Shown: in pieces, positions 3,770 through 21,866 of the stretch
How the letters are laid out: every line of letters begins with the position of its first letter
Numbering within the stretch: position 1 is the stretch's first letter
Assembly (NCBI RefSeq): GCF_016862935.1
Contig: NZ_BONX01000026.1
Span: forward strand, 1-64,000
Direction: 5' to 3'
DNA from: Plantactinospora mayteni
GTDB taxonomy: Bacteria > Actinomycetota > Actinomycetes > Mycobacteriales > Micromonosporaceae
Length of the DNA: 64,000 nt
Notes under the pieces: generated by a model
Seen by the model: the letters and a program-made list of their open reading frames with translations, nothing else
Databases searched by the model: none
Told to the model about the DNA's origin: nothing
Translations under genes and position numbers: made by a program

Positions 3770-3775
3770 GGCGTG

Positions 3776-5074: not shown

Positions 5075-5076
5075 CG

Positions 5077-5664: not shown

Positions 5665-5742
5665 TCCGATGGCGTCCGCCCCTCCCCGCCGGAAGGAACT
5701 CCGGCCCGCTCCCCGGGATGACCGGGGAGGTACGGGCCGCTG

Positions 5743-6972
5743 ATGAAGCTCACGCCCTACCGGGAGGCGCTCGCGCTGCCCGGCGTACGGTCGCTGATGG
5801 TGGTCGCCCTGCTGGCCCGGATCCCGAAGACCATGACGGCCATCACGCTGACCATGTACGTCGTGCTGCACCTCGACCACGGGTACGCCGCCGCCGGACT
5901 CGCCGGTGCCGCGATGACGATCGGCTCCGCCGTCGGCGCCCCACTGCTGGGCCGGCTGGTCGACCGGCGTGGACTCCGGCCGGTACTCGCGTTGACCACC
6001 GTCACCGAGGCCGCCTTCTGGGCCACCGCGCAGTTCATGCCGTACCCGGTGCTGCTGGTCGGGGCGCTACTCGGCGGCCTGCTGACGCTGCCGGTCTTCG
6101 GCGTGGTCCGGCAGTCGGTCGCCGCGCTCGTCCCGGCGGCGAAGCGCCGGCCGGCGTACGCGCTGGACTCGATGGGCGTGGAGCTGTCGTTCATGGTCGG
6201 GCCGGCCCTGGCGGTGGTGCTGGCGACCAGCGTGTCGCCCCGGACCGTGCTGCTCGTGGTCAGCGGTGGCATCACGCTGGCCGGCCTGGCGCTGTTCTGG
6301 CTCGACCCGCCGACCCGGACCGACCACGAGCCGGTCGACCCGGCGCGGCCGGTCAGCCGTCGGGAGTGGCTGACGCCCCGGATGCTCGGACTGCTCGCCG
6401 TCAGCGCAGCCACCACGCTGACGCTCGGCGGCACCGACGTCGCCGTGGTGGCGGTACTCAGGACGGCCGGTCAGGTCGAGTGGACCGGCCTGGTGTTGAC
6501 AGTGTGGGCGGTCTACTCCCTGATCGGCGGCTTCGTCTACGGCATGGTGTCGCGGTCGATCTCCCCGGTGCTGATCGTCACCCTGCTCGGGCTCTGCACC
6601 ATCCCGGTCGGCTTCGCCGGTACGCAGTGGTGGTCGCTGGGTCTCGCGTTGCTGCCGGCCGGGGCACTCTGCGCGCCGGCCCTCGCCGCCAACACCAACG
6701 CGGTGAGCCAGCTCGTCCCGCCGGGGGTCCGGGGCGAGGCGATGGGCCTACAGAATTCCGCGATCACGACCGGCCTGGCCCTGGGCGCGCCGCTGGCCGG
6801 CGCGGTGATCGACGCCTCCGCGCCGCTCTGGGGTTTCGCCGCGACCGGCCTGGTCGGCGCACTGGTCGGGGTGGTCCTGCTCCCCACCGAGCTACGCCGC
6901 CACCGGGCCGGACGCGCCGGACGACCGGTCGGCGAACCACCCGCCAAACATCCGGCGTCCGTCCTGGACTAA
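5743..6972 (+). CDS. MFS transporter
   Basis: A 409-aa integral membrane protein with about 12 predicted hydrophobic helices. Between helices 2 and 3 is the MFS loop GAPLLGRLVDRRGLRPVLAL, which fits the GxxxDRxGRR signature. A hydrophilic central loop (about residues 187-210) splits the two six-helix halves. The substrate cannot be read from sequence. It lies 78 bp downstream of pncA on the same strand, with GGGGAGG upstream at a rather long 12-nt spacing. Membership of the NAD-salvage operon, for example as a precursor or drug transporter, is possible but unproven. Confidence 0.85.
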   Translation: MKLTPYREALALPGVRSLMVVALLARIPKTMTAITLTMYVVLHLDHGYAAAGLAGAAMTIGSAVGAPLLGRLVDRRGLRPVLALTTVTEAAFWATAQFMPYPVLLVGALLGGLLTLPVFGVVRQSVAALVPAAKRRPAYALDSMGVELSFMVGPALAVVLATSVSPRTVLLVVSGGITLAGLALFWLDPPTRTDHEPVDPARPVSRREWLTPRMLGLLAVSAATTLTLGGTDVAVVAVLRTAGQVEWTGLVLTVWAVYSLIGGFVYGMVSRSISPVLIVTLLGLCTIPVGFAGTQWWSLGLALLPAGALCAPALAANTNAVSQLVPPGVRGEAMGLQNSAITTGLALGAPLAGAVIDASAPLWGFAATGLVGALVGVVLLPTELRRHRAGRAGRPVGEPPAKHPASVLD

Positions 6973-7023
6973 TTGCCGCCGAAGGGACACCGGGGCAGAT
7001 CTTGTCGGTCGCACCCGCTAGCG

Positions 7024-7061
7024 TTCCGCCTTGTTCCGGAGCGGAATGCGGCGGAGCAAGG
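7024..7061 (+). promoter_or_regulatory. Two mutually exclusive hairpins before the DUF4132/MoxR operon
   Basis: TTCCGC (7024-7029) can pair with GCGGAA (7041-7046) across an 11-nt loop. CCTTGTTCCG (7029-7038) can pair with CGGAGCAAGG (7052-7061), 9 of 10 positions. The two share bases and cannot form together. They lie between the MFS stop and the AAAGGTG ribosome site of the first operon gene, so they could act as an operator or a leader RNA switch. Function is inference. Confidence 0.4.
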
Positions 7062-7085: not shown

Positions 7086-7934
7086 GTGGGTTGGCTGTCG
7101 GCGGGTGACACGTACGAGGTCTCTCTGGTGGAGCACAAAGTGGTCGCCCGGCGCGGGTCCGGGCGTCCACTGAAGACATTGCCGAAGGCGTTGCGGGACC
7201 ATCCGGAGGTGGACCGGCTACGTCAGCTCGCGGAGTGGCTCGACCGGCACTCCGCGGCCTGCCTCGCCCAGGTCGACGCCTGGATGGTGTCGTCCGTGCC
7301 CGTCCCGACCGCCCTGCTGGGCCGGATCTGGCCGGACCCGGCGTGGCAGGACGTGTTGCGCGATCTCGTGGTCGTCGGCGACGACGAGGAGGCCGGCTTC
7401 CTCCGGGACGTCACCGGGGCCGGCGAGCTACGGGTGGTCGACCTCGACGGCGAGACGCTGCGGTTGGCGGCCGAGACCGTCACCCTGCCGCATCCGATCC
7501 TCCTGCCCGACCTCGACGAGCTGCGCGATTTCGCCGCCGACCTGGGCGTCACCCAGCGGGTCGAACAACTCCACCGGGCCACCTGGGCCAAGCCGGCCGA
7601 CGTCCGGGAGCGGGCGACCGAGGTGACCGACTTCGACGGAGCGAAGTTGCCGAGCCGGGCCACGCTGCTCGCCCGGGCCACCGCGCTGGGCTGTCAGGTG
7701 TCCGGCTCGATCATCACCTGCCGGGTGTACGAGTCCGGGCGGATCGTCGAGGCGACCGGCTGGCTCGACGGTGACTACTGGTCCGACTGGACCATGGGCA
7801 GCCTCTCCTGGCGACTCCGGGACGGCCGGCAGTTGCGGCTGCCGGAGGTCGGGCCGGTGGCCTGGTCTGAGGGGATGCGAATGGCCGCGGCGCTGGGCGG
7901 CGGCCAACCGGTCGAGGCGGAGAAGGGCGCGTGA
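7086..7934 (+). CDS. Small DUF4132-like protein, first gene of MoxR/VWA operon
   Basis: A 282-aa soluble protein starting at GTG 7086 behind GAAAGGTGAATTC. Residues about 130-200 (ETVTLPHPILLPDLDELRDF, then TQRVEQLHRATW) resemble the C-terminal DUF4132 block, in which a His-Pro-hydrophobic segment precedes a Q-R-x-Q-x-x-R stretch. The C-terminus (SGSIITCRVYESGRIVEATG) also resembles that domain. E. coli YehI carries DUF4132 in a much larger protein, so this looks like a stand-alone version. The match is from memory of the family. The next gene overlaps by the 4-nt GTGA. The molecular function of DUF4132 is unknown. Confidence 0.65.
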   Translation: MGWLSAGDTYEVSLVEHKVVARRGSGRPLKTLPKALRDHPEVDRLRQLAEWLDRHSAACLAQVDAWMVSSVPVPTALLGRIWPDPAWQDVLRDLVVVGDDEEAGFLRDVTGAGELRVVDLDGETLRLAAETVTLPHPILLPDLDELRDFAADLGVTQRVEQLHRATWAKPADVRERATEVTDFDGAKLPSRATLLARATALGCQVSGSIITCRVYESGRIVEATGWLDGDYWSDWTMGSLSWRLRDGRQLRLPEVGPVAWSEGMRMAAALGGGQPVEAEKGA

Positions 7935-10900
7935 CGACGATGACGACCGAGGTCGAGGAACTGCTCGCGGCCGGTGCGGTGCTGCCGCTGGACGCCACCG
8001 GGGCCGGCGAGCAGGCGGTGCCGCTGACCGCCCGCACCTACCGGCACCCGGTGCTGGACGACCGGCCGGTGGTCCGGCTGGTCGCCGCCGAACTGGGCAT
8101 CGCGGAGGACGCCGCCACCGGCTTCCTCGGACTGGACCGCACCGAGGAACCGCTCGTGGTCGGGCTGGGCCAGCGGCAGTCGCTCGGCTTCCCGGAGTGG
8201 GTGCTGGTGCACCACCCCGACGACGGCCGCGAGGCGCTGGCGATCGTGCCGGAGACGAAGCGGATCGCCCAGCAGGCGCGGTCCAAGCCGAAGCTGGCCG
8301 TCGAGGCATACCACGCGCTCGCCGGTCGGCTGGCCCGGTCGGTGCCACACTTCCTGCCGACCTTCTACGAGCAGGCCGGCCGGGTCTTCCTCGACCTGGA
8401 CGAGGAGACATGGGCGGGGCAGATGTTCAACCGGGCCCGCAAGGCCGAGGCGGAGCACGGGCTGACCGTCGACCCCGATCGCCTCGACGGCGTCTACCTG
8501 GAGTTCGCGCTGGCCGGGGCACTCTCCGCGACGACTCTCGCCGGATACGCCAAGGACCTGGCCGCCCGGCTGCCGGCCGACCAGGCCCTGGACCGGTTCT
8601 GCCAGCTCTGCGTACGCAGTGTCGCGGCTGGGCTCGTGCCGGCGGCGCAGACCTCGACCACCGTACGTCGACTCGTCCGGGCCGCCGCGAAGGCCGGCGA
8701 CGCGGCCGGGGCGGAGGAGCGCGAGCGGGCGTACCTGATCGAGTTGATCGGCCTGCCGGCGACGCTGAAGGCGACGGCGTGGTGGAAGGCGCACCTGCCG
8801 GAGCTGGTCAAGCTGGCCGGACACGACCGGTCCGTACGCGGGACGCTGCTCAACCTGATGCCCCGGGACGACTACGACGGCGACGTGATCCCGCAGTGGC
8901 TCGACATCCTCGTCCAGACCGGCGCCGCCGAGGGGCTGGTCGACGGTGCCCTGCCCGCCTCGGAGCGCCCGGCCGACGGGTCGAGCGGCTGGCTGCGGCG
9001 CCTCCTGGAGTCCCGGCACGCCAGCAGCTACCGCACACCCCGCCGGCTGCCGGCGTTGTACGAGCTGGTGACCGGGATGGCCGGCCGACTCCGCGCCGAA
9101 CTCGCCGAGTCCGGTGCGACCGTCGCCGCCGTCGCGGACCTCGACCTGGTCGACCTGCTGCTCTCGCTGGACGTGCCGGTGAGCGATCCCGAGAGCAGGA
9201 ACCTGCCCCTCGACACCTGGGCGAACGGCGAGGGGCAGCGTGACCTCCTCGGGGTGGCCGGCGACGCCCGGTTCCGCGCGGCGCTGCTCCGCTTGATCCC
9301 GCTGCCGAACAACGGGTCCGGCCGGCAGGTGATGGGGCGGCTGGCCGACTCCCCCGGTGGGCGCCCGGTGCTGGCCGAGTGGGTCCGCGCGCGGGCCCAG
9401 GAGTGCCACACGGCGGGCCTGCCGGACCTGGGGCAGGCGGCGGAGCTGATCCTCGCGCTGCCCGGCGAGGCGCTGGCGCTGGCCCCGGACGAGGTCGCCG
9501 CGGTGGCCGGCATCGATCTCGCCGAGGCGGTCGCCCGGGCGCTGCGCGGCGGCATCTACGACGAGCTGGGCTGGCCGGCCTGGGAGGAGGCCCTCGCCGA
9601 CGTGGTCGGGGGGGACCACCGCCTCGTGGCGGACGCCTGGCCCTACCTGGTCGTCGGCGGGCCGGCCCGGGCCCGGGTGATCGACGCGGACGGCACCGTA
9701 CTCAGCCACGACCTGCGGATCCCGGCCGGCGACATACAGGGCGGACCCCAGTTCCAGTACGTCGACGGCGCGCTGCTGGTCTACTGGACGTCCCGCGAAC
9801 TCGACTACGAGTCGCGCGGCTACTGGCACACCTCGGCAGACGCCCCGCAACCCATGCCGGACATGCCCGCCCGGGACCGGCGCAGTGGGAACGTCACCCT
9901 GCCGGTACCAGGTGGCGGGCGTACCACCGGCGACGGTCCGCTGCATGTGGGAGACACCGTGCTGCCCATCGATCGACCGGTGATCAGCGACGGTACGTCC
10001 TACTGGGTGCGGGCGCACGAAAAGGCCGGCGGCTACCAGTGGCGCGAGTTCGACCCGACCACCGGCACGTGCGGCCGGCCGAGCCTGCCCGGCTTCCTGG
10101 CCGACGCGCTGACGGACGCCCCGAGCGGCAGCACACTGCGGGACACGTCGAGCTGGCTGCTGCCCGCCCCGACGGACCGGGTCACCCCGCTCGGCGTACC
10201 GGTGGACGGGCTGCTCGGCTGGCGGGTGGTGAACCTGCCGGACGGGTCGAAGCGGGGCGAGGACCTCGCCGGCCGGTCGGTCACGGTCTCCCGCGGCGTG
10301 CCGGTCGCGGCGCTGACGCTGCCCGGCGACGACCGGCCCAGGGCCGTGCTCGACGACCTGAGCCTGGTCGACCCGGACGGGGTGGTCAGCGCGGCGGCCG
10401 GCCAGCGAGGTCAGAACCGGGACTACACACCCGACGCCATACCGCTGCCGCCCCGCAACCACTGGCACCAGCTCCGGCCCCGCGACCCGCAGGGCTCGGT
10501 GGCGCTGCGCCGGATCGACCACGAGACGGCTGCCGCACTGCTCAAGGGCGCCACCGAGGTGCAGTCGGCGAAGCCGGCAGAGGCAGATGCGAAGGCGGAT
10601 GCGAAGGCGAAAGCGAAGGCGAAGGCGGAGGCGAAGGCCGCCCGGACCGAGGCCCTGCTCGCCCTGGTCCGGACCACCCTGCCGCAGCTCACCCACGACG
10701 AGGTGCGGGCCGGGGTGGTCGGGGTGCTGCGGTTCGCCGTGGCCCGGCAGGCCACCCTCGACAATCTGGCGGAACGGCTGCGGAAGAAGCCGGCCGCCCG
10801 CCCGGCGGAGGAACCCGTCACCGGGCCGACCGACGGGGAACTCCACGAGGCGATGGACGGTCTGCTCGGCAGCGGCCACCACCGATCGAGAGCGGAGGGC

Positions 10901-12856
10901 AGGGAGGTGATGCGGCAGCTCCGGGCGATCCGTCGGGCCGTGGCCGCGCCGCTGCCGGACCCGCTCCCCGAACTGCACCACGAGGGGACGGCGGTGCCGC
11001 ACGCCCCGGTGAACTGGCCGGTCATGCTCGCCCACAGCGCGGCCCTGGCATACCGGGCCGTGGCCGCGACCACCGTCGAGCCGAGCCGGGAGGCACTGCG
11101 TGCCCTGCTCACCGGGCTGGACGAGCTGGGTCTGACCGCGTCGGACCAGTGGCGGCGCTTCACCCTGCACCTGGCCGACAGCCACCTGACGCTGCCGGAC
11201 GGGAAGAGGCGGGCCGGCAACTGGCGGGGCACCCTGCCGATCGCCGAGGGCACGTTCCTCAGCATGTACCACCACCAGCAGGCGGAGACGACCTCGCCCG
11301 GCTACCGCTTCTCCGCGCTGTACCGCGACCCGACCGGGGCGTTCGCCGTGCCGGCTCCCTACACGGTGCACTCCTCGGCTCCGGTCGGGGACGACCGGCC
11401 CGCCGGCTGGCTCGGGTCCTTCCTGGCCGAGTGGGCGACGCGCGGTCCGCTGCCGTGGCTGCCCGAGGCCGTCGACCGGTTCGTCGAACTCACCGGGGTC
11501 ACCCCGACGGTCGGCAAGCTGGTGCTGGCCGGGATGCTCCAGGTGGACACCGAGGCCCCGCTGTCGGCCGAGACCCGCAAGCTGTTGAAGGTCAAGGCGA
11601 CCGAGGTGGCGTACGCCTTCCGGACACTGGACAGGATCGGGCGCGGCGTCCGGCGTGACGTCGTCGCGGCGCTGCTGCCCGAGCAGCCCGCTCGACTGTG
11701 GACGGAGGGCCCGGACGTGGCCGCCGCGGCGGCGGTCTGGAACGCGGCGGTGGGCCGGACGATCGCCGTACCCGAGCAACTCCTCGCCGACGCGGCCAAG
11801 TCGGTACGGACGAGCTGGGGACCGGAGGGGGCGCTGCCGGCGCTGCTCGACCCGGCCGGTAGCCCGGTGCTGAACACCGACCTGGTCTGGACGGTCCGCG
11901 GCGACCGGGTGGTACCGGTGGACGGAAAGGCGAAGGGTTTCACCGCCGACATCCTGGTCGGTGCCGTCGCCACCGCCGCCTGGGTGGCCCAGCACACCCC
12001 GGCGGGCGACCCGGTACGCGCCGCGCTGCCCGGCGCGCTCGCCGCCGTCCGGGACCGGCTGGCCAACCCCGACCTGCTGCTCGGCCTCGGCAAGTACGTC
12101 CGGCTCGATGCCTTCCGGAAGGTGGCCGGCGCCCCGACCGAGACCGGGGACGGCTGGGAGCGGTACGGCGCCGTCGTCCTGGCCACCCACGACGACCAGC
12201 CCGACCCGGGGATCAAGGTCGCCCTGCTGGACGAGGCCGGCAGCGATCCGTTCCTGCCGGCGCTGCGCGGCGGATCCCAGCGGATGTTCCCGGTCGAGAC
12301 GGCCCTGTGGCTGGCCCGCGATCCGGGCTTCGCCGCGCTGCTCGCCGATCCCGGTGATCCGGTCGCCGGCACCCGGGACGCGACCGGCACCTGGTGGCCG
12401 CAGGACCCGGCACGGTCGGTGCCGGACCTGGTCGCCGAGGTCGCCGAGGCGCACGGGCTGGGCGGCGACGCCGCCGCGCTCTACCTGACGGTGCTGGCCC
12501 TGCCCGACCCGACCGACCGCAACGTGACCCGGTGGACCGGCTGGAAACCGACCCGGTTCAAGGCCGCGCACGCCGAACTGGCCGGCACCGACCTGGTCGT
12601 CCGGGCCACCCGTGCCCGGGCCGGTCGTTCGCTCTTCCTGCCCTGCGCCTGGTTCGACAACTCGAGCCCGCGACTGCCGATCGAGCAGTGGAAGGTGGAG
12701 CTGTACAGGATCCCGGGACAGCCGCTCCCGCCCTTCGACACGACCCTTCCCCTGGAGCCGGTGCCGGACCTCTACCGCCGGGCCTGGCAACGACTCCGGG
12801 ACGGCGACGTTCCCCGGTTCGAGGAACTGCGCACCCCCGGCCGTACCCGCCGCTGA
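7931..12856 (+). CDS. 1641-aa protein of unknown function in MoxR/VWA operon
   Basis: A very large soluble protein whose GTG start overlaps the previous stop as GTGA. I do not recognise a catalytic domain. The N-terminal third is helical, including SVPHFLPTFYEQAGRVFLDL and a WAGQMFNRARKAE segment. The middle is richer in beta strands and Gly, with YWTSRELDYESRGYWHT. An Ala-Lys low-complexity stretch (about residues 881-905) is followed by a helical C-terminal half ending with LPIEQWKVELYRIPGQ. The Lys-rich stretch could bind nucleic acid or act as a linker. Position within the operon points to a structural or client-binding partner of the MoxR ATPase. It is a real gene: GC3 is near maximal along its full length. 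Confidence 0.75.
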   Translation: MTTMTTEVEELLAAGAVLPLDATGAGEQAVPLTARTYRHPVLDDRPVVRLVAAELGIAEDAATGFLGLDRTEEPLVVGLGQRQSLGFPEWVLVHHPDDGREALAIVPETKRIAQQARSKPKLAVEAYHALAGRLARSVPHFLPTFYEQAGRVFLDLDEETWAGQMFNRARKAEAEHGLTVDPDRLDGVYLEFALAGALSATTLAGYAKDLAARLPADQALDRFCQLCVRSVAAGLVPAAQTSTTVRRLVRAAAKAGDAAGAEERERAYLIELIGLPATLKATAWWKAHLPELVKLAGHDRSVRGTLLNLMPRDDYDGDVIPQWLDILVQTGAAEGLVDGALPASERPADGSSGWLRRLLESRHASSYRTPRRLPALYELVTGMAGRLRAELAESGATVAAVADLDLVDLLLSLDVPVSDPESRNLPLDTWANGEGQRDLLGVAGDARFRAALLRLIPLPNNGSGRQVMGRLADSPGGRPVLAEWVRARAQECHTAGLPDLGQAAELILALPGEALALAPDEVAAVAGIDLAEAVARALRGGIYDELGWPAWEEALADVVGGDHRLVADAWPYLVVGGPARARVIDADGTVLSHDLRIPAGDIQGGPQFQYVDGALLVYWTSRELDYESRGYWHTSADAPQPMPDMPARDRRSGNVTLPVPGGGRTTGDGPLHVGDTVLPIDRPVISDGTSYWVRAHEKAGGYQWREFDPTTGTCGRPSLPGFLADALTDAPSGSTLRDTSSWLLPAPTDRVTPLGVPVDGLLGWRVVNLPDGSKRGEDLAGRSVTVSRGVPVAALTLPGDDRPRAVLDDLSLVDPDGVVSAAAGQRGQNRDYTPDAIPLPPRNHWHQLRPRDPQGSVALRRIDHETAAALLKGATEVQSAKPAEADAKADAKAKAKAKAEAKAARTEALLALVRTTLPQLTHDEVRAGVVGVLRFAVARQATLDNLAERLRKKPAARPAEEPVTGPTDGELHEAMDGLLGSGHHRSRAEGREVMRQLRAIRRAVAAPLPDPLPELHHEGTAVPHAPVNWPVMLAHSAALAYRAVAATTVEPSREALRALLTGLDELGLTASDQWRRFTLHLADSHLTLPDGKRRAGNWRGTLPIAEGTFLSMYHHQQAETTSPGYRFSALYRDPTGAFAVPAPYTVHSSAPVGDDRPAGWLGSFLAEWATRGPLPWLPEAVDRFVELTGVTPTVGKLVLAGMLQVDTEAPLSAETRKLLKVKATEVAYAFRTLDRIGRGVRRDVVAALLPEQPARLWTEGPDVAAAAAVWNAAVGRTIAVPEQLLADAAKSVRTSWGPEGALPALLDPAGSPVLNTDLVWTVRGDRVVPVDGKAKGFTADILVGAVATAAWVAQHTPAGDPVRAALPGALAAVRDRLANPDLLLGLGKYVRLDAFRKVAGAPTETGDGWERYGAVVLATHDDQPDPGIKVALLDEAGSDPFLPALRGGSQRMFPVETALWLARDPGFAALLADPGDPVAGTRDATGTWWPQDPARSVPDLVAEVAEAHGLGGDAAALYLTVLALPDPTDRNVTRWTGWKPTRFKAAHAELAGTDLVVRATRARAGRSLFLPCAWFDNSSPRLPIEQWKVELYRIPGQPLPPFDTTLPLEPVPDLYRRAWQRLRDGDVPRFEELRTPGRTRR
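10584..10641 (+). repeat. Short tandem GCGAAG repeat coding an Ala-Lys run
   Basis: Near-perfect 6-bp repeats of GCGAAG/GCGAAA with GAT and GAG variants encode alternating Ala and Lys/Asp/Glu. The 6-bp unit preserves frame, so copy number can change without disrupting the gene. Base composition here is clearly more A-rich than the surrounding sequence. Confidence 0.75.
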
Positions 12857-12934
12857 CCCGGCGGGCGGCACGGCCGAGCACCACCTGAGACAGAACCCCG
12901 CACGCCACCACAGAGAAGAGATCAGGGAACTCCG

Positions 12935-14149
12935 GTGACCACGACCGAACAGACGACTCCCCGCACCCCGACCACCCCCGCCGGTCCGGCGATCGGCGAT
13001 CCCGGCTGGCAGGTGCTGCCGGCCGAACGGCGGTACGCCGCCGAACTCGCCTTCCTCGCCGCGTACGACGACGGCCCCCGACCGCCCGGCTGGGCGCTGA
13101 CTCCGCGCGCCGTGGTCACGTTCATCCAGGGCAGCGACGGTGAACCGCTCACCCTGGCGACGGAGCGGCGGAGCGGCGCCGACGGCACCGAGCTGCCGGC
13201 CAGGCTGGAGATCCCGGCCAAGTTCGTCGGCGAGCGCGCCCTGGTCGAGCGCTGTGTGGTCACCTTGGCCGGCGAGCGTGGGCTGCTGCTGGTCGGCGAG
13301 CCGGGTACCGCCAAGTCGATGCTCTCCGAGCTGCTCGCGGCGGCGATCTGCGGTACCAGCGCGCTGACCGTGCAGGGCACCGCCGGCACCACCGAGGACG
13401 CCTTCCGGTACGGCTGGAACTACGCGCTGCTGCTCGCCCAGGGACCGACCCGACAGGCCCTGGTCGAGTCACCGGTGCTCACCGCGATGCGTACCGGCCG
13501 GTGCGTACGGGTCGAGGAGGTCACCCGCTGCCTGCCGGAGGTGCAGGACGCGCTGGTGTCGATCCTCTCCGACCGGCGGATCAACGTACCCGAACTCGCC
13601 GACACCACCGACGGCGTGATCCCGGCGGCGCCCGGCTTCACCGTGATCGCCACCGCCAACCTGCGGGACCGGGGCGTGTCGGAGATGTCGGCCGCGCTCA
13701 AGCGGCGGTTCAACTTCGAGACGATCCACCCGATCGCCGACGCCGGAACCGAGATGGAGCTGGTACGCCGGCAGGCCATCGCCGCGGTGCACCGGGCCGG
13801 TGCCTCGTTCACCGTCGACGATTCGGTGCTGGACGCCCTGGTCACGGTCTTCCGGGACCTGCGCGCCGGCCGCTCGGCGGAGGGCTGGTCGGTGGAGCGG
13901 CCGGGCACGGTGATGTCGACCGCCGAGGCGGTGCAGGTGGCCGCCTCACTCGGGCTCGCCACGGCGTACCTCTCCGGGGCCGACGCGCTCGACCTGATGC
14001 CCGGGCACCTGCTCGGGGTGGTCCGCAAGGACGACGAGGCCGACCACGGCCGGCTGATCGGCTACTGGGACGGCCCGGTACGGCGGCGTGCCGAGGAGGG
14101 TGCGTCGATGTGGCGGCGGCTCTGGGACCTGCGGGAGACGCTCCGGTGA
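12935..14149 (+). CDS. MoxR-family AAA+ ATPase (YehL-like)
   Basis: A 404-aa AAA+ ATPase of the MoxR group, predicted to work as a chaperone-like remodeler with VWA partners. The N-terminal ~90 residues are specific to this type. Walker A is GEPGTAKS (residues 121-128), Walker B is VRVEEVTR with E194/E195, sensor 1 is IATANLRDRG, and an arginine-finger region reads ALKRRFNFE. GTG 12935 follows AGGGA at about 6 nt. It lies 78 bp after the 1641-aa gene and overlaps the DUF5682-VWA gene by GTGA, so stoichiometric co-translation is likely. E. coli YehL is the closest match by domain order and neighbours. Confidence 0.92.
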   Translation: MTTTEQTTPRTPTTPAGPAIGDPGWQVLPAERRYAAELAFLAAYDDGPRPPGWALTPRAVVTFIQGSDGEPLTLATERRSGADGTELPARLEIPAKFVGERALVERCVVTLAGERGLLLVGEPGTAKSMLSELLAAAICGTSALTVQGTAGTTEDAFRYGWNYALLLAQGPTRQALVESPVLTAMRTGRCVRVEEVTRCLPEVQDALVSILSDRRINVPELADTTDGVIPAAPGFTVIATANLRDRGVSEMSAALKRRFNFETIHPIADAGTEMELVRRQAIAAVHRAGASFTVDDSVLDALVTVFRDLRAGRSAEGWSVERPGTVMSTAEAVQVAASLGLATAYLSGADALDLMPGHLLGVVRKDDEADHGRLIGYWDGPVRRRAEEGASMWRRLWDLRETLR

Positions 14150-17100
14150 CGAGTGCCGCATCGACCGATCCCCGGGCGGCGCTCGCCACCCTCGCCAGCT
14201 CGACCGAGCCGTACCTGATCGGGGTACGGCACCACAGTCCGGCGCTGGCGGCCGTCGTACCGGCACTGCTGGACGCCGCCGCTCCCGAGGTGGTCTGCGT
14301 CGAGCTGCCCACCGACTTCCAGCGCTGGCTGCCCTACCTGGCCGATCCGGCCACCCGGGCGCCGGTCGCATTGGCCGGAGCCCGGGACGACGGGCCGCTC
14401 GGCTTCTATCCGTTCGCCGACTTCTCGCCGGAGTTGGCCGCGATCCGGTGGGCCCGGGAGCACGGGGCCGAGGTGTTCTGCTGCGACCTCCCACTGACCG
14501 ATTCGGGCTGGTCCGCCGACGCCCCGGCGCCGACCGACCACTCCGGGCCGGCCCAGGGCGCCGGGCACGACAAGCCGGCCGCCGAACAGGCCAAGGCGGG
14601 TGCCGGGCACGACAAGCCGGGTGAAGAGCAGGAAAAGCTGGCCGCCGAACAGGCCAAGCCAAGTGCCGGGCAGGACAAGGCGGGTGCCGGGCAGGACGAG
14701 ACGGACGCCGGTACCGACCAGCCCGAGCAGGGCAGGCCGGGTGGACCGGCTTTCGCCGCCGCGCTCGCCGCCGGCGGCACCGGCCGGGACGGCGACGACC
14801 TGTGGGACCGGGCGGTCGAGGTACTCGCCCCGGGCTGTCCCGCCGACGCGGTGCGCCGGGCGGCACTCGGGGTCGGCTGGGCGATGCGCCAGGACGCCAC
14901 TGCCGGCCCCGGCGTACCGGCCCGGGACCTGGCCCGGGAGGAACACATGCGCCAGGTCATCGCGCGGGCCGGGGCCGAGGGCCGGCGAGTGGTCGCGGTG
15001 GTGGGCGCCTTCCACGCTCCCGCCCTCGCCACCGGCCCGGCCGGGCCCGGCACAGCGTCGCGGTCCGCCACCTCGATCCCGACCGCAGCCAGCAACGCCA
15101 GCACAGTCAGCGCTGGTACGGCCAACGCCAGCACAACCAGCGCTGGTACGGCCAACGGCGGCGCGGCCGGCAGCACGACCTCGGACGGCGCGGGCGCGGT
15201 CGCCACCTCGCTGGTGCCCTACGCCTTCGACCTGCTCGATTCCCGTTCCGGTTATGCGGCCGGCATCCGCGATCCCCGCTGGCAGCAGGCGGTCTTCACC
15301 TCGGGCGGCGACCCGGAGCGGATCCGGGAGGCCGCCGCGCGGGCCATCACCGAGCTGTGCCGGACCCTCCGGGCGGCGGGGCACACCGCCGGGACCGGGG
15401 AGGCGGCCGAGACCCTGCGGATGGCTGACGACCTGGCCCGACTGCGCGTACTGCCGGCGCCCGGCCGGGGCGAACTGCTGGAAGCGGTGACGACCGTACT
15501 CGGTCAGGGTGAGCCACTCGGTCGGGGGCGGGCACTGGCCCGGGCTCTCGACACCGTGCTGGTCGGCACCGACCGGGGTCGGGTCGCCCCCGGCGCGCCA
15601 CGGTCCGGTCTGGGCCCGTCGGTGGAGGCCGAACTCGTCGCGTTGCGACTGCCCCACCCCGGTGACCCGGCGTCCAGGGAACTCCGCCTCGACCCGCTCC
15701 GCTCGGAACTCGACGGCCGGCGGGAGACGTTGCTCCGCCGGCTCCAGATCTGCGGAATCGACTACGGTACGCCGATCGAGGTCTCCGGCACCGGTGACGG
15801 TACCGCGCTCACCACCCGCTGGGAGGTCTCCTGGAAGCCCTCCGTCGCCGCCCTGCTGGACCTGGTCGGCGTACGCGGGGTCACCGCGGCCCTCGCCGCC
15901 ACCGGCACGTTGCGGGAACGGTTCCGTCGCGAGGCGGCGGAGGGCGGGCCCACCTGCGCGCAGCTCATCGCCGGGCTGAACGCCGCCGCCCGGGGCGACC
16001 TGCCCGAGCTGGTCGCCGACCGGCTCGCCCTCGCCGCCGACGTGCTGCCGTCCACCGGCACCCTTGCCGAACTGCTCAGCGCCCTCGACCTGCTGGAGGC
16101 GCTGCGCCGGGAGCACCTGCCGGGCACCACCCCGGACGGGCGACGGCAGGCGGCCGACCTGGCCGTCGTCCTGCTGGACGCCGCGGTCCGCGGGCTGCCC
16201 GGGCTGGCCGGCAGCGATCAGCCGGAGGACGCCGCCGCGCTGGTCGCGCTCGCCGTCCGGGCCGGCGAGCACCGGATCGGCCTGCGCCTCGACGACGCCC
16301 TGGATCGGCTGGCCCAGGCCGGTTCCCCGCTCGTCCAGGGGGCCGCGCTGGCCGCCCGGGTACTGCTCGACCTGGACGGCGCGGACGCCCTCGGCACCCG
16401 CGCCGCCGGCTGGGTCGACGCCGGCTCGAGTCCGGACGGCCGGCGGCGGCTGCACCACCTGCTGGCCGGGATGCTCACCGCCGCCGGCCCGCTGCTCCAG
16501 TCCGCGCCGTCCGCGCTCGGCCCGTTGCTCGACCGGGTCGAGCGGCTGACCGACCAGGACTTTCTGGACCGGCTACCCGCGTTGCGCGGCGGCTTCGACA
16601 CTCTCTCACCGGCGGCCCGGGACCGACTGCTGCGGACCGTCACGGAACGTCTCGGCGATCGGATCGACCTGACCCTCGCCGCCCCGCCCGAGCTGCTGAT
16701 CCGCTGGGCCGCCGCCGATGCGGCCGGCTGGGCCGCGCTCTCCGCGCTCCGCCTGCCGATATCCGGACCCGACCCGACCGGACCCGACCCGACCGGAGCC
16801 GACCCGAACGGCGCTTCGCGCACCGCCACGGCCACCGTCGACCCGACGGCCCGGCCCGGTTCCGCGACGGATCTGTCGCCGGAGGTACGCCGGTACGGAC
16901 CCGCCGACCGGTGGCGGCTGCTCCTCGGCCGGGAGTCCGAACGGCTACCGGACGACGCCCGCCGGCACGCGCACGCGCTGGACGAACTGTACGGCGCGGG
17001 ACAGGGTGAGGGCGCGACCGACTTCGGCTCGGGACCGGCCGGTGCCGGCGGGGGCCAGGAGGCGTCCTTCCCGACCGCGCGGGAGTGGGCCGCTGAGCTG

Positions 17101-18012
17101 GAGGCCCTGTTCGGGGCGGGCATCCGGGAGGAGGTCCTGGCCCGGGCCGCCGAATCCGGGCGTACCGACGTGCTCGCCGAACTCGATCCGGCCGCGGTAC
17201 GCCCGTCGATGGAGTTGCTGACCTCGGTACTCTCGCTGGCCGGTGGCCTGCCCGAGCAACAGCTCGCCCGGTTGCGCCCCCTGGTCCGGCGACTCGTCGA
17301 CGAACTCGCCCGGCAACTCGCCACCCAGCTCCGTCCCGCACTGACCGGGGTGGCCACCCCACGGCCCACCCGTCGCCCCGGAGGTCGGCTCGACCTCGCC
17401 CGTACGCTCCGGGCCAACCTCGCGCACACCCGCCGGCTCGACGACGGCCGCACGGTGGTGATCCCGGAGCGGCCGATCTTCAAGACCCTCGCCCGGCGCG
17501 AGGCGGACTGGCGGCTGGTGCTGGTGGTCGACGTCTCCGGGTCGATGGAGGCGTCGGTGGTGTGGTCGGCGCTGACCGCCGCTGTGCTGGGCGGGGTGCC
17601 CACGCTGTCGACCCACTTCCTCGCGTTCTCGACCCAGGTGATCGACCTGACCGACCGGGTGAGCGACCCGCTCTCCCTGCTGCTGGAGGTACACGTCGGC
17701 GGCGGTACGCACATCGCCGCCGGGCTGGCCCACGCCCGCTCGTTGGTGACCGTGCCCAGCCGGACGATCGTGGTGGTGGTCAGCGACTTCGAGGAGGGGT
17801 ACCCGATCGCCGGGCTGCTCGGTGAGGTCCGTTCGCTGGCCACCTCCGGCGTCCAACTGCTCGGCTGCGCCGCGCTGGACGACGGCGGGGTGCCGCGCTA
17901 CTCGGTGCCGATCGCCCAACAACTCGTCGCGGCCGGCATGCCGGTGGCCGCGCTCAGTCCCCTCGAGCTCGCCCGGTGGGTGGGCGACCGGCTACGCGGA
18001 GGATCCCGATGA
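14146..18012 (+). CDS. DUF5682 - VWA domain fusion protein (YehM+YehP-like)
   Basis: One open frame of 1288 aa joins two domains that E. coli keeps as separate genes (YehM and YehP). The N-terminus (residues 22-60) reads YLIGVRHHSPALAAVVPALL, then VVCVELPTDF. A second block near residues 262-292 has REEHMRQVI and VVAVVGAFHAPAL. The paired GxxH motifs (G26-H29 and G287-H290), with E53 and R269, resemble the TraB/TIKI/EreA hydrolase superfamily. The C-terminus is a von Willebrand A domain with MIDAS motif DVSGSM (D1129, S1131, S1133) and GGGTHIAAGL. Low-complexity inserts occur near residues 130-200, 300-345 and 870-905. The start is GTG 14146 overlapping the MoxR stop. MoxR ATPases classically remodel VWA partners. 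Confidence 0.88.
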   Translation: MTSAASTDPRAALATLASSTEPYLIGVRHHSPALAAVVPALLDAAAPEVVCVELPTDFQRWLPYLADPATRAPVALAGARDDGPLGFYPFADFSPELAAIRWAREHGAEVFCCDLPLTDSGWSADAPAPTDHSGPAQGAGHDKPAAEQAKAGAGHDKPGEEQEKLAAEQAKPSAGQDKAGAGQDETDAGTDQPEQGRPGGPAFAAALAAGGTGRDGDDLWDRAVEVLAPGCPADAVRRAALGVGWAMRQDATAGPGVPARDLAREEHMRQVIARAGAEGRRVVAVVGAFHAPALATGPAGPGTASRSATSIPTAASNASTVSAGTANASTTSAGTANGGAAGSTTSDGAGAVATSLVPYAFDLLDSRSGYAAGIRDPRWQQAVFTSGGDPERIREAAARAITELCRTLRAAGHTAGTGEAAETLRMADDLARLRVLPAPGRGELLEAVTTVLGQGEPLGRGRALARALDTVLVGTDRGRVAPGAPRSGLGPSVEAELVALRLPHPGDPASRELRLDPLRSELDGRRETLLRRLQICGIDYGTPIEVSGTGDGTALTTRWEVSWKPSVAALLDLVGVRGVTAALAATGTLRERFRREAAEGGPTCAQLIAGLNAAARGDLPELVADRLALAADVLPSTGTLAELLSALDLLEALRREHLPGTTPDGRRQAADLAVVLLDAAVRGLPGLAGSDQPEDAAALVALAVRAGEHRIGLRLDDALDRLAQAGSPLVQGAALAARVLLDLDGADALGTRAAGWVDAGSSPDGRRRLHHLLAGMLTAAGPLLQSAPSALGPLLDRVERLTDQDFLDRLPALRGGFDTLSPAARDRLLRTVTERLGDRIDLTLAAPPELLIRWAAADAAGWAALSALRLPISGPDPTGPDPTGADPNGASRTATATVDPTARPGSATDLSPEVRRYGPADRWRLLLGRESERLPDDARRHAHALDELYGAGQGEGATDFGSGPAGAGGGQEASFPTAREWAAELEALFGAGIREEVLARAAESGRTDVLAELDPAAVRPSMELLTSVLSLAGGLPEQQLARLRPLVRRLVDELARQLATQLRPALTGVATPRPTRRPGGRLDLARTLRANLAHTRRLDDGRTVVIPERPIFKTLARREADWRLVLVVDVSGSMEASVVWSALTAAVLGGVPTLSTHFLAFSTQVIDLTDRVSDPLSLLLEVHVGGGTHIAAGLAHARSLVTVPSRTIVVVVSDFEEGYPIAGLLGEVRSLATSGVQLLGCAALDDGGVPRYSVPIAQQLVAAGMPVAALSPLELARWVGDRLRGGSR

Positions 18013-20048
18013 CGCGTTCCCTGTCGGCCGAGGCGCCGACCGCCGTACCGGCCGCCCTCCCGCCGGTGGTGCCGCAGGTGGTCGCGGCGGCCACCGAGGC
18101 ACTTGGCCCACGGCTGCTCAAGAAGCTGGACGCGACGGTCGAACGGGTCGGCGCGCTGCCCCGCACCGTGGCGGACGAGGGCGTCCGGCTGGACTTCGGT
18201 CCGGACACCGTCGTCACCCTGGCACCCGGACCGTCCGGCGTGATCACCGATGCCGACCAGGCCCGCTGCGGTTGCCTGCTGGCGCCGCGCTGCCTGCACT
18301 TGGTGGCCGTGTTGACCGCCTGCCCGGTCGCCGATCCGGTCATGGTTCCGGCACCGCACACCACTACCGGCGCAGGCGCGCCGGAGACCGGCACCGGAAC
18401 TCCCCCGGACACCGAAGGCCCAGACACCGAAGGCCATCGAGACAACGAAGGCCGAGACAGCAACGGCCGGAGCAGCGCGGGTCGGGGCGGCGCCGGAGGA
18501 AAGGGCGCGAAGCGTACCGGCGACCGGACCGGCTCGGCAGTCGGGGCCGACGACCCCGCGTCCAGCTCGGGATCGGCGGGCCGAGGTGCCCGGAACAGTG
18601 CTCCCAGCGCCGCCGCGCGGGCTGCGGCGGAGGACCTGTGGCGCGCGGCGGCGGCGGTGCTCGCCGCCGGGGTTCCCGGCTCGGGTGCGGTGCCCCAGGC
18701 CGAACTGCTCCGGGCCGCGCACAGCGCCCGGGTGGCCGGGCTGCACCGCGCGGAGAGCGCCGCGCTGCGGGTGGTCCGCGGTCTACGGGCCGCCCGGGGC
18801 CGCCACGACAGCCACCGGTTGGCCGATCTGGTCCAGGTGCTGCACGAACTCCTGCTCACCGCCGGTCGGCTCGCCGCCGGCGACCCCGACCCGGCCCTGG
18901 TCGGGATATCCCGCCGCAGCTACCGGCCGGGCGGCGGTCTCCGGGTGTACGGCGTCTGCCGCGAGCCGGTGATCAGCGCGACCGGTTACGGCGGAGTGGT
19001 CACCCATCTCGTGGACGACGAGGGCCGGTGGTTCTCCATCCCGGACGTGCAGCCCGGCGGGCCGGATCGGGCCCGCAGCTCCGCGACGGCGCTGGTCGAG
19101 GTCGGCTCGGCCGGGCTCACCCATGCCCGACTGGCCCGCGCCGGACTGGTGATCACGGGTACGACCGTCTCGCCGGACGGCCGGCTCGGTGCGGGTCGGG
19201 GGGTACGGGCCAGCCCGATCAGCGGGCCGAGCTGGTCGGGGGGTGCACTGGACCGGCTGTTCGCCCGCCCGCTCACGGCGACGGTGGGCGCCCAGCTCGA
19301 TCCGGCGGCCGACACCGCCGGCCCGGCCGAACAGGGTGGTGCCGGAGCCGAACTCGTCGGTGCCGATCTCGTGCTGATCGGCGCGACCGGTGACCACGTA
19401 CTCGCCCGTGAGCTGTCGGCGCTCGAAGCCGGGCCGGTGATCCGGCTGGTACCGGCCAACGCCCATCCCGCGCTGGCGCACCTGGCCAACCTGCGCCGGC
19501 TGGCGAGCCGTCCCGGCCTGCGGATCCGGGTGGTCGCCCGGCTGGACCCCGATCGGGCGAGCACGCTGGTCCCGCTCGCGGTCGGTCCGGTGCCGGGATC
19601 CGAGCAGACGCTACGGCTGCCGGACGACTGGCAGGGCCACGCCGATCTCGGGTACGACCTGCTCCAGGGCGCACACCTCCCGCCGCTCGCCAGCGTGCTG
19701 GACGTACCGGTCGACCGCCCCGGGCCCGACCCGGTGGCCAGCGCACCGCTGTGGCGGGTACGCCGGCTCGTGGAGCTGGCCGTGGCCGGTGGACGTCGGG
19801 CCGTCGGCGAGTCTGCCCGGGGCGACGGCCCCGGTCTGGTCACTCCGTTGCGGCGGGCCGGGTTCCAGGTCGCCGCCGAACTCACCACCGCGCTCGCCGC
19901 GGAGTCGGACCGGCAGGGCCGGGACGCCTTCGGCCGGCTGACCGAACCGGATCCGGACCGGTACGCCTGGGCCTGGGTCGCCGCCGTCACCCACCTCGCG
20001 GCCACCGAGCGGGCGCTGGTCCGTGCCTCCTGGAGCGACGACGCGTAA
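18009..20048 (+). CDS. SWIM zinc-finger protein (YehQ-like)
   Basis: A 679-aa protein starting at ATG 18009, which overlaps the previous stop as ATGA. The SWIM motif CGCLLAPRCLH (C87, C89, C95, H97) fits CxCx(n)CxH and predicts a zinc-bound DNA- or protein-binding module. Residues about 118-165 form a Gly/Asp/Glu/Thr-rich linker with repeated DTEG units. The C-terminal 450 residues are alpha/beta with no motif that I recognise. As last gene of the operon it is followed by a 17-bp hairpin. E. coli YehQ has the same SWIM type and the same MoxR/VWA neighbours. Confidence 0.88.
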   Translation: MTRSLSAEAPTAVPAALPPVVPQVVAAATEALGPRLLKKLDATVERVGALPRTVADEGVRLDFGPDTVVTLAPGPSGVITDADQARCGCLLAPRCLHLVAVLTACPVADPVMVPAPHTTTGAGAPETGTGTPPDTEGPDTEGHRDNEGRDSNGRSSAGRGGAGGKGAKRTGDRTGSAVGADDPASSSGSAGRGARNSAPSAAARAAAEDLWRAAAAVLAAGVPGSGAVPQAELLRAAHSARVAGLHRAESAALRVVRGLRAARGRHDSHRLADLVQVLHELLLTAGRLAAGDPDPALVGISRRSYRPGGGLRVYGVCREPVISATGYGGVVTHLVDDEGRWFSIPDVQPGGPDRARSSATALVEVGSAGLTHARLARAGLVITGTTVSPDGRLGAGRGVRASPISGPSWSGGALDRLFARPLTATVGAQLDPAADTAGPAEQGGAGAELVGADLVLIGATGDHVLARELSALEAGPVIRLVPANAHPALAHLANLRRLASRPGLRIRVVARLDPDRASTLVPLAVGPVPGSEQTLRLPDDWQGHADLGYDLLQGAHLPPLASVLDVPVDRPGPDPVASAPLWRVRRLVELAVAGGRRAVGESARGDGPGLVTPLRRAGFQVAAELTTALAAESDRQGRDAFGRLTEPDPDRYAWAWVAAVTHLAATERALVRASWSDDA

Positions 20049-20051
20049 CGA

Positions 20052-20089
20052 CTCGCGGCCGGTACCCCGCTCGGGGTACCGGCCGCGAG
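20052..20089. terminator. Perfect 17-bp hairpin between convergent operon and ctaD
   Basis: CTCGCGGCCGGTACCCC pairs perfectly with its complement across a GCTC loop. No U-tract follows, as is usual in actinobacteria. It lies in the 57-bp gap between the SWIM gene and ctaD, which converge, so it can serve both strands. Confidence 0.85.
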
Positions 20090-20105: not shown

Positions 20106-21866
20106 CTACCGCTGGTCGATGTCGCTGGCGGTGTCCTCGGTGTAACTGGCGCCGTGGTCGGATTCGCTGGTCAGCGGCTTGGCGCCACCCTCGGGCGGAC
20201 CGGCCAGCGACTGCCCGCCGGCGGCCAGCTCCGGGAACTTCGCGTCGAAGGCCGGCCGCTCGGAGCGGATCCGGGGCATCCGGTCGAAGTTGCGCAGCGG
20301 CGGCGGCGAGCTGGTCGCCCACTCCAGCGAGTTGCCGTGACCCCACGGGTCGTCGACCTCCACCAGCGGCCCGGCCTTGTACGACTTCCAGACGTTGTAG
20401 AGGAACGGCAGGGTCGAGATGCCGGTGATGAACGAACCGATCGTGGAGATCATGTTCAGCGTGGTCCAGCCGTCGATCACCTGGTAGTCGGCGTACCGCC
20501 GGGGCATGCCCTCGTTGCCGAGCCAGTGCTGCACCAGGAACGTGGTGTGGAAGCCGACGAAGGTCAGCCAGAAGTGCACCTTGCCGAGGCGCTCGTCCAG
20601 CATCCGGCCGAACATCTTCGGGAACCAGAAGTAGATGCCGGCGTAGACGGCGAAGACGATGGTGCCGAAGAGCACGTAGTGGAAGTGCGCCACCACGAAG
20701 TAGGAGTCGGAGACGTGGAAGTCGACCGGCGGGCTGGCCAGCAGTACGCCGGTGAGGCCGCCGAAGAGGAAGGTGACCAGGAAGCCGACCGCCCAGAGCA
20801 TCGGGGTCTCGAAGCTGATCTGGCCGCGCCACATCGTGCCGATCCAGTTGAAGAACTTCATGCCGGTCGGCACCGCGATCAGGAAGCTCAGGAACGAGAA
20901 GAACGGCAGCAGCACCTGGCCGGTGGCGAACATGTGGTGCGCCCAGACGCTCATCGAGAGCGCCGCGATCGCGATGGTCGCGCCGACCAGACCCTTGTAG
21001 CCGAAGATCGGCTTACGGGAGAAGACCGGGATGACCTCGCTGATGATGCCGAAGAACGGCAGCGCGACGATGTAGACCTCGGGGTGCCCGAAGAACCAGA
21101 AGAGGTGCTGCCAGAGCATCGGGCCGCCGGTCTCGGCGTCGAAGATGTGTGCGCCGAGGATCCGGTCCGCGGCGAGCGCGAAGAGGGCCGCCGCCAGCAG
21201 CGGGAAGACCATGATCACCAGGAGGCTGGTGACCAGGATGTTCCAGGTGAAGATCGGCATCCGGAACATCGTCATGCCGGGCGCCCGCAGCGTCAGGATC
21301 GTGGTGATCATGTTGACGCCACCGAGGATCGTGCCCAGACCGGAGATGGCCAGGCCGACGATCCACATGTTCGCGCCGACCCCGGGCGAGTGCTCCACGT
21401 TGCTCAGCGGGGTGTACGCGAACCAGCCGAAGTCGGCCGCCCCGCCGGGGGTGAGGAAGCCGCCCAGCGCCAGCGTCCCGCCGAACAGATAGAGCCAGTA
21501 CGCGAAGCTGTTCAGCCGGGGGAACGACACGTCCGGGGCACCGATCTGGATCGGCACCACGAAGTTCGCGAACGCGAAGACGATCGGCGTGGCGAAGAAC
21601 AGCAGCATGATCGTGCCGTGCATGGTGAATAGCTGGTTGTACTGCTCCGGCGACAGGAACTGGAGTCCCGGCCGGGCCAGCTCGGCGCGCATCAGCAGCG
21701 CCATCAGGCCACCGATCATGAAGAACGCGAACGCCGTGACCATATACATGATCCCGATCTGCTTCGCGTCCGTCGTACGCAGCAGCCGCGCGAGTGCCGA
21801 GCCCTTGACCGGCTGGCGTACCGGCCAGGGCCGGGTCACGATCGGCTTGGGTGCGACGGTGGTCAC
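20106..21866 (-). CDS. ctaD: Cytochrome c oxidase subunit I
   Basis: Catalytic subunit of the aa3 terminal oxidase in the cytoplasmic membrane, reducing oxygen and pumping protons. About 12 transmembrane helices are visible. Heme and copper ligand regions are [11 protein letters not shown], the [14 protein letters not shown] Tyr-His segment, [10 protein letters not shown], and [14 protein letters not shown] 21866 is preferred because GGAGG lies 6 nt before it. An upstream in-frame GTG at 21902 would place this ribosome site inside the gene. The product has 586 aa with a hydrophilic, charged C-terminal tail. Subunit II and III genes are not in the window, a common arrangement in actinobacteria. 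Confidence 0.97.

Follow-up and report, generated by a model that had tools for sequence, protein, structure and literature searches.

The locus described here belongs to Plantactinospora mayteni and lies on contig NZ_BONX01000026.1, of which positions 1 to 64,000 were analyzed (the window). Five co-directional genes, delimited by reading-frame calls and Pfam, occupy positions 7086-20048 of the plus strand; they encode a short DUF4132 protein, a giant protein of no known family, a MoxR AAA+ ATPase, a fusion of DUF5682 to a VWA domain, and a SWIM zinc-finger protein (Table 1). A preliminary description of this DNA had proposed the DUF4132, MoxR, DUF5682-VWA and SWIM assignments, and Pfam agrees with them; SWIM scores below threshold, but its motif is present in 65/65 homologues. 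The same description had the five genes running in one direction, with 4-nt overlaps at three of the four junctions and a 17-bp hairpin closing the set. The coordinates bear this out: the junctions are, in order, -4 (GTGA), +78 nt, -4 (GTGA) and -4 (ATGA), and the hairpin was found after gene 5. An NCBIfam scan of the five proteins returned no member above cut-off. The start of gene 1 was placed at its GTG codon; a longer leftward frame would overlap an MFS gene, which is itself a good gene. The operon unit begins upstream of 7086, at the promoter discussed below.

Table 1. Coordinates of the genes, domains and signals of the five-gene locus within the window
Feature	Coordinates	Strand	Description
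Predicted RecA-NDp/PafBC-type promoter	7002-7024	+	TTGTCGGTC-N8-TAGCGT, 61 nt before the GTG start
Gene 1	7086-7934	+	Short DUF4132 protein, 282 aa, GTG start; PF13569 4.7e-29 (Pfam)
Gene 2	7931-12856	+	Giant protein, 1641 aa, family not known; no Pfam family at E ≤ 1
Predicted beta-propeller of giant	9623-10396	+	Residues ~565-822; strands at model positions 101-358
Giant C-terminal module (DPTDRN..RWTGWKP..)	12371-12850	+	Highly conserved; 68% mean column identity in a 22-sequence alignment
Gene 3	12935-14149	+	MoxR AAA+ ATPase, YehL type, 404 aa; AAA_5 1.8e-35 (Pfam)
Gene 4	14146-18012	+	DUF5682-VWA fusion, 1288 aa; DUF5682 3.7e-206, VWA_CoxE 6.6e-64
DUF5682 region	14257-17232	+	PF18934; TIKI/TraB-like signature in N-terminal third of gene 4
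CoxE-type VWA	17317-17982	+	PF05762 6.6e-64; MIDAS motif DVSGSM
Gene 5	18009-20048	+	SWIM zinc-finger protein, 679 aa; PF04434 0.0091, sub-threshold
Hairpin	20052-20089	not assigned	17-bp stem, 4-nt loop; -42.4 kcal/mol, z -6.9

The 113-bp gap preceding gene 1 contains TTGTCGGTCGCACCCGCTAGCGT. In mycobacteria, the RecA-independent DNA-damage promoter (RecA-NDp) is given as tTGTCRgtg-8 nt-TannnT (PMC5656591), and PafBC is described as the activator of this promoter (PMC8223512). The site in the window fits the consensus save at one lower-case position. This match was first spotted in the window, and the statistics over loci were run afterwards with three patterns of decreasing stringency: a strict form (TTGTCRGT-N9-TANNNT), a form with the first base free (NTGTCRGT), and a form in which only the correctly spaced TGTC and TANNNT are kept (NTGTC-N12-TANNNT). 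The strict pattern precedes gene 1 in 51/86 loci, compared with 0/86 on the reverse strand, 2/1141 for the other genes of those loci, and 33/17061 for random 310-bp windows; one of the two matches at other genes stands before the giant gene of locus L075, itself part of such an operon. The looser forms were found at 71/86 loci versus 4/1141 other genes and at 82/86 loci versus 8/1141, respectively. The 86 loci comprise 85 distinct upstream sequences, many from related species, and do not amount to 86 independent events.

In the 9.84-Mb genome of the host, the strict pattern occurs three times, the window promoter being one of the three, and a reversed-pattern control not at all. Of the other two sites, one has a SAV_6107-type HEPN gene ~450 bp downstream of it, and no obvious repair gene follows the other. 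The genome also encodes PafC (HTH_PafC 5.7e-44) together with a WYL neighbour, near a Pup-ligase gene. Thus, the two marks of a PafBC/RecA-NDp regulon, a motif close upstream of the first gene and the presence of PafC, are both found here, and from them we infer PafBC control of the operon. LexA control in actinobacteria was considered and rejected, as a LexA-type box (CGAAC-N4-GTTCG, at most one mismatch) was found in only 1/96 actinobacterial upstream regions. The operon very probably belongs to the DNA-damage response.

The same pattern also occurs elsewhere. Eight genomes of a genus that we take to be Streptomyces (G161, G023, G193, G107, G182, G128, G246 and G171) carry 11-45 strict sites each, compared with 0-1 for the reversed-pattern control. 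Among 30 such sites fetched with their surroundings (loci L184-L213), 28 are followed by a co-directional gene whose start is no more than 450 bp away. Pfam was run on these 28 genes, with 25 of 29 families listed; the set counts certain genes more than once, from separate genomes, and includes at least three members of the system itself (DUF4132 and two SWIM). The products include UDG (twice), RuvC (twice), exonuclease VII, a UvrB interaction domain and a UvrD-type helicase, in addition to ribosomal S6, WGR, DUF4132 and several unrelated genes. The ribosomal S6 gene, rpsF, presumably adjoins ssb. Other products encoded behind strict sites are three YjbR proteins, two sigma-70-type factors, a Cas3-HD protein and an IS605/Cas12f-like domain, so that this type of control may extend to defence, mobile-element and regulatory genes.

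Such a mixture raises the question of whether the pattern marks a housekeeping-type promoter, or reflects a role of PafBC in oxidative stress, with the operon serving as a general stress chaperone instead of a DNA-damage system. PafBC is described as controlling oxidative-stress genes too in mycobacteria (PMC8223512), and a fair share of the 28 genes are not repair genes. Yet the pattern is rare, both in the host genome and in the eight Streptomyces-genus genomes, and repair genes stand out among the genes behind it, so a general stress role is very improbable.

Association of the strict pattern with DUF5682 extends beyond the five-gene arrangement. In the five genomes with a complete site list (G023, G107, G161, G182 and G246; 144 sites), a strict site lies 8 kb or less from 10/11 DUF5682 loci, the distance limit having been chosen after looking, against a chance expectation of about 0.05 strict sites per locus. 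Only the five-gene locus of G023 departs from this; it carries CTGTCAGTG-N8-TACAGT. Among loci of other arrangements, a strict site was found at -78 in L043, which is of the yeh type (see below), before the divergent SWIM gene in L051 and L052, and ahead of the operon in L049.

Several observations speak against this damage-type control. The strict form is absent from 35/86 loci, with several Micromonospora loci showing C/GTGTC variants, and even the loosest form is absent from 4/86. No strict site was found in G204, a genome of the host's own family, at the other DUF5682 locus of the host genome (C45), or in the fetched stretches of 8/12 DUF5682 loci of other types (L043-L045, L047 and L049-L056). 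In addition, a remark in PMC9380542 about an initial motif search states that S. venezuelae does not conserve the PafBC motif of mycobacteria. The site counts above, from other genomes of the genus, disagree with this remark and suggest that Streptomyces does have a PafBC regulon.

The composition of the operon points to a known but uncharacterized relative. The preliminary description had noted kinship to yehI, yehL, yehM, yehP and yehQ of E. coli, and gene order, hhalign comparisons and a MoxR tree all support this. In E. coli K-12, the order is yehI (DUF4132), yehK, yehL (MoxR), yehM, yehP (VWA) and yehQ (SWIM); DUF4132, MoxR, DUF5682, VWA and SWIM follow one another in the same order in the window. 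The window MoxR matches YehL at 7e-83, and the gene 4 fusion matches both YehM (3e-17 by phmmer, 3.8e-81 by hhalign) and YehP (2e-61 and 2.7e-80, respectively). Residues 10-265 of gene 1 align with YehI 935-1203 (hhalign, E 1.1e-9); gene 1 is, by this alignment, the counterpart of the C-terminal DUF4132 part of YehI. The two SWIM proteins share only a weak likeness (E 0.007). The giant showed no relation to YehI (best E 0.28), YehM or YehQ by hhalign, and the idea that it supplies the missing part of YehI was thus rejected.

YehL is a named MoxR subfamily. In a tree of 25 MoxR sequences with RavA as the outgroup, the MoxRs of the five-gene type form a clade with YehL, L043 and L170 (support 1.0), and those of the three-gene and divergent types described below group separately (second clade, support 0.98); the MoxR of L045 belongs to neither clade, a placement that is poorly supported. 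The window protein shows the motifs of the YehL type (Walker A GEPGTAKS, Walker B EEVTR, and TANLRDRG), in general form GEPGTAKS, EE[IV]TR and TANxRDRG, which were read off the same alignments; a Walker B of the form EE[IVL]TR is common to all 24 tree MoxRs except RavA.

The operon and the E. coli cluster (yehF/yehH-I-K-L-M-P-Q) thus share gene order, a MoxR of the same clade, a DUF5682-VWA protein corresponding to YehM plus YehP, and signs of DNA-damage control. Since the DUF4132 protein is cut to 282 residues and lacks the rest of YehI, the VWA domain is fused to DUF5682, and the giant, not found in the E. coli cluster, is unrelated to YehI, the operon is best regarded as a yeh variant and not as the same arrangement; the E. 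coli hallmark of one long YehI-like DUF4132 protein with separate YehM and YehP is not seen in the window. Control also differs, being apparently of PafBC type in the window and of LexA type in E. coli, and the SWIM proteins are weakly alike.

The relevant damage signal in E. coli concerns molR, which we take to be the yehF/yehH region. One source lists molR as an SOS gene of E. coli (PMC3978071). Upstream of yehF, CTG-N10-CAG starts at 25 bp, in one of five upstream regions examined; given a chance rate of ~0.07 per 300 bp, a single match in five regions is weak by itself. In D. radiodurans, DRA0166 (DUF4132) and DR2173 (WGR) are reported to be strongly raised by DdrO depletion and not to be raised in irradiated cells lacking irrE (PMC8533742), a behaviour that fits the DdrO/IrrE damage regulon. 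In M. smegmatis, MoxR1 and MoxR2 are given among the proteins lowered in the absence of pafBC (-1.6 and -1.7) (PMC5656591). An actinobacterial yeh-type operon (L043) encodes a YehI-like protein that includes a WGR domain (7.7e-15); Pfam found none in E. coli YehI, and YehF is annotated with PF05406. In PARPs, WGR binds DNA breaks.

Simpler relatives also exist. The three-gene MoxR-DUF5682-VWA units (L051 and L052) share with the operon MoxR, DUF5682, VWA, SWIM and the promoter type, and differ in having no adjoining DUF4132 or giant, a divergent SWIM gene, and a MoxR of the separate clade. In L051 the divergent SWIM gene is followed by DUF5691, and in L052 a SWIM gene stands in the divergent position. 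At L171:9388-14538, a MoxR of the three-gene clade adjoins a 1249-aa DUF5682-VWA fusion; the fusion may therefore have arisen more than once. A divergent DUF5682-VWA-MoxR arrangement was seen in the host genome (G000:C45:126566-128347) and in L047, L049 and L055, and two small upstream proteins in L049 matched no Pfam family at E ≤ 0.01.

The preliminary description had suggested a remodelling machine built on MoxR and VWA, an idea that holds up through domain content and the kinship to YehL, YehM and YehP. RavA-ViaA, NorQ-NorD, CoxD-CoxE and midasin likely work on the same principle, an AAA+ MoxR ring with a VWA/MIDAS adaptor, and all five PDB sequences that matched the gene 3 MoxR at E ≤ 0.001 were midasin. 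RavA differs in being only 20% identical, and we know of no partners held in common with any of these four systems. By analogy with them, the MoxR-VWA pair of the operon probably has remodelling activity. Such pairs also invite comparison with chaperones for metal-cofactor insertion or enzyme maturation of the CoxD-CoxE or NorQ-NorD type, with a client encoded elsewhere in the genome. The window VWA is of the CoxE family, and metal insertion is listed among the known roles of MoxR-VWA pairs in three papers (PMC7159879, PMC9976466, PMC13036017). Set against this are the absence of a conserved neighbour gene, and hence of a conserved client, and the poor fit of a DNA-damage-type promoter and of SWIM, WGR and DUF4132 partners, so that a maturation role appears improbable.

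For the five products to form one machine, their genes should recur together, and the preliminary description had named their rarely occurring together as a finding that would refute it. A profile of the giant protein (A1, seven sequences) was searched against an 84,980-species collection, giving 452 related stretches, of which the best 80 were kept and yielded 79 loci; the counts that follow therefore describe close relatives. All five genes were matched in 58/79 of these fetched actinobacterial loci. By called genes, 58 sets, the window included, stand in order on one strand. A -4 overlap is present at junctions 1 to 4 in 52/58, 1/58, 47/58 and 35/58 sets, respectively. No conserved sixth gene was found among up to four genes per side, the widest cluster comprising 10 loci in mixed positions. 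Sequence comparison thus supports the five products as one conserved genetic unit.

The other 21/79 loci comprise 11 truncated where the contig or the fetched stretch ends, one (L073) that looks broken, and nine real departures. MoxR is absent from the operon in five departures (L117, L128, L130, L132 and L133), and DUF4132 and the giant alone remain in four (L112, L113, L122 and L123); consequently, the five genes need not always work together in cis. MoxR was searched for in 7/9 departure genomes. In three of the seven (those of L117, L128 and L122), a further locus carries the complete five-gene set, which suggests that MoxR can be supplied in trans in shortened loci. The L133 genome has a close MoxR (72% identical), which lies close to the end of a contig and has none of the other four genes in its 12-kb fetched stretch, and in the genomes of L112, L123 and L113 the best MoxRs are of other types. 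Distribution is patchy as well: the giant occurs in 40/394 genomes of the class, paralogues counted, and DUF5682 in 21/296 genomes of the phylum. Such patchiness of the giant also counts against a universal repair function.

The giant also occurs unaccompanied by the other genes. One such copy lies in the host genome (C54:89268-91055, L146), where the other four genes were not recognized in the fetched stretch, and similar paralogues occur in L147-L150 and L153-L157; in L075, four frames match the giant, and tandem copies may be present. The flanks of the operon vary. Directly upstream, at 3773-6972, lie nicotinate phosphoribosyltransferase, isochorismatase-type and MFS genes, an order that among the fetched loci is repeated only in L057 and L134. 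Downstream, a cytochrome oxidase subunit I gene on the minus strand (20106-21866) converges with the operon across the hairpin. None of 200 shuffles was as stable as the hairpin, which is terminator-like, lacks a T-run after the stem, and sits between the convergent genes.

Structure prediction gave a first view of the giant. An AlphaFold2 model of residues 465-1640 had a mean predicted local distance difference test score (pLDDT) of 89.1 and a predicted template modelling score (pTM) of 0.73. The Foldseek matches listed for it are rich in propellers (neuraminidase, WD40, Kelch, EPTP and prolyl-oligopeptidase type), with weak E-values, a top match that is not a propeller, and a blade number that is not settled. 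Together, the model and these matches indicate a predicted beta-propeller at residues ~565-822. A sequence comparison of the conserved C-terminal module with the PDB gave no relative at E ≤ 0.5, and a DNA-binding domain at the C-terminus was accordingly dropped as a candidate.

The SWIM assignment of gene 5 rests on its cysteine-histidine pattern. The Pfam score is 16.0 bits versus a cut-off of 19.6, a shortfall that tells against the assignment, and the pattern CxC-x(3-20)-CxH is present in 65/65 gene 5 homologues longer than 550 aa, so that the family bears the CxCx(n)CxH signature of SWIM. This domain occurs in the Shu complex. That the SWIM subunit binds nucleic acid remains an inference.

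The DUF5682-VWA protein may bring an enzymatic function as well. The VWA MIDAS motif DVSGSM occurs in 62/75 family members longer than 900 aa. DUF5682 itself carries a signature recalling the TIKI/TraB superfamily: G26xRH29H30 (GxRHH), E53 and G287xxH290 (GAFH), the two GxxH motifs and conserved Glu of that superfamily, correctly ordered. Across 18 diverse members, that of E. coli among them, E53, G287 and H290 do not vary; G26 is missing in L045. Among 75 fusion proteins the first motif is present in 74 and the second in all 75. Pfam detected weak ChaN matches in 3 of the 18 members (best E 0.056) and TraB matches in 2 (best E 0.024). Since TraB proteins were found in 1/60 actinobacterial genomes, E. 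coli and plasmid records served as the source of the TraB profile (nine rows), which scored 27.4 against DUF5682 by hhalign (E 0.005, probability 7.6%), above all controls: 60 column shuffles (at most 18.1), a reversed profile (13.8) and seven unrelated profiles (at most 20.7). At default settings 33-68 columns around the second GxxH were aligned; at a low threshold the alignment became full-length, with all four motifs in register, and showed DUF5682 to share with TIKI, TraB and ChaN two GxxH, the conserved Glu and R[NE]xx[MW], the difference being a long alpha-helical extension.

Other results run counter to this relationship. Variants of the TraB comparison scored 27.4-27.9 with probabilities of only 3-10%. 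A model of DUF5682 residues 1-905 had an overall pLDDT of 66.7, with a more confident alpha/beta core at the start, and the 50 Foldseek matches listed for it, mostly helical-repeat proteins, contain no TIKI protein; a TIKI fold was therefore not recovered by this route. By sequence, no DUF5682 relative in the PDB was better than E 0.08. Membership of DUF5682 in the TIKI/TraB superfamily is thus likely but unproven, and its being an active hydrolase is doubtful.

The presence of MoxR and vWA also calls for comparison with biological-conflict systems, a reading that the preliminary description had suggested. Here the operon would be an anti-phage or suicide system with DNA damage as its alarm, in which MoxR-VWA would be the switch and the effector would be DUF5682 or the giant. 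Patchy presence, freely varying flanks and large scaffolds do recall the MoxR-vWA conflict systems, and the P-loop GXXXTAKS is described as common to two classes of them (PMC7159879); one Cas3-HD-like gene was also among the 28 genes behind strict sites. With the ternary systems (Kaur et al., 2020) the operon shares the MoxR and vWA core, GXXXTAKS and a beta-propeller somewhere in the set. It differs from them in lacking the defining third component, in having its propeller in a separate giant, and in its DNA-damage-type promoter: no VMAP, iSTAND, FtsH, EAD above cut-off or known effector domain was found in the five proteins, no propeller lies C-terminal to the vWA domain, which ends gene 4, and bpMoxR scored 21.5 bits versus a cut-off of 27 (Pfam). 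Moreover, PADLOC at 1e-10 matched 4/61 nearest flanking genes versus 1/50 further out, with two of the four (mad2 and ZorD) plausible and two generic enzymes, and the five proteins themselves reached a best E of 0.042. With both the defining components and the neighbourhood missing, a conflict system was rejected as the first choice and is rather unlikely.

We therefore lean, by a modest degree, towards the operon encoding a protein-remodelling machine that DNA damage induces, the actinobacterial version of the yeh (molR) system of E. coli. Damage regulation in this proposal rests on sequence statistics, and the remodelling steps are extrapolated from protein families. In the two initial steps, which have sequence support, the PafBC-type, RecA/LexA-independent promoter would switch on the five genes as one transcript, and the YehL-type MoxR, the DUF5682-VWA (MIDAS) adaptor, SWIM, DUF4132 and the propeller-containing giant would be made together. 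PafBC is reportedly activated by single-stranded DNA (PMC11804915), and the operon should thus come on once damage exposes single-stranded DNA. By analogy with NorQ-NorD, RavA-ViaA and midasin, the MoxR ring, using ATP, would pull a target held by VWA. SWIM, DUF4132 and the giant might recognize or scaffold a nucleoprotein formed in DNA damage, which the ring would dislodge or refold. A nucleoprotein target is a natural guess given these partners (a zinc protein of a kind often linked to nucleic acids, a DUF4132 protein joined to WGR in the sister system, and a giant scaffold), though one we hold with less than even confidence. More weakly still, the TIKI/TraB-like part of DUF5682 could hydrolyze the target or a regulator.

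Beyond the preliminary description, the analysis adds the DNA-damage-type promoter, the predicted beta-propeller of the giant, and the TIKI/TraB-like signature in DUF5682. A search of one paper collection gave no described role for DUF4132, DUF5682, YehL-type MoxR or SWIM. The operon is a variant of the already known E. coli yeh cluster, and the new point is the promoter. As a more speculative extension, which we put forward with some reserve, MoxR-DUF5682-VWA-SWIM sets of the yeh/molR, five-gene and DUF5691 types might constitute one unrecognized, widespread DNA-damage machine, captured by LexA in E. coli, PafBC in actinobacteria and DdrO in Deinococcus, and pulling apart, perhaps with TIKI/TraB-type cleavage, protein obstacles on damaged DNA. 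The remodelling proposal offers a testable function for the DUF4132, DUF5682, YehL-type MoxR and SWIM families.

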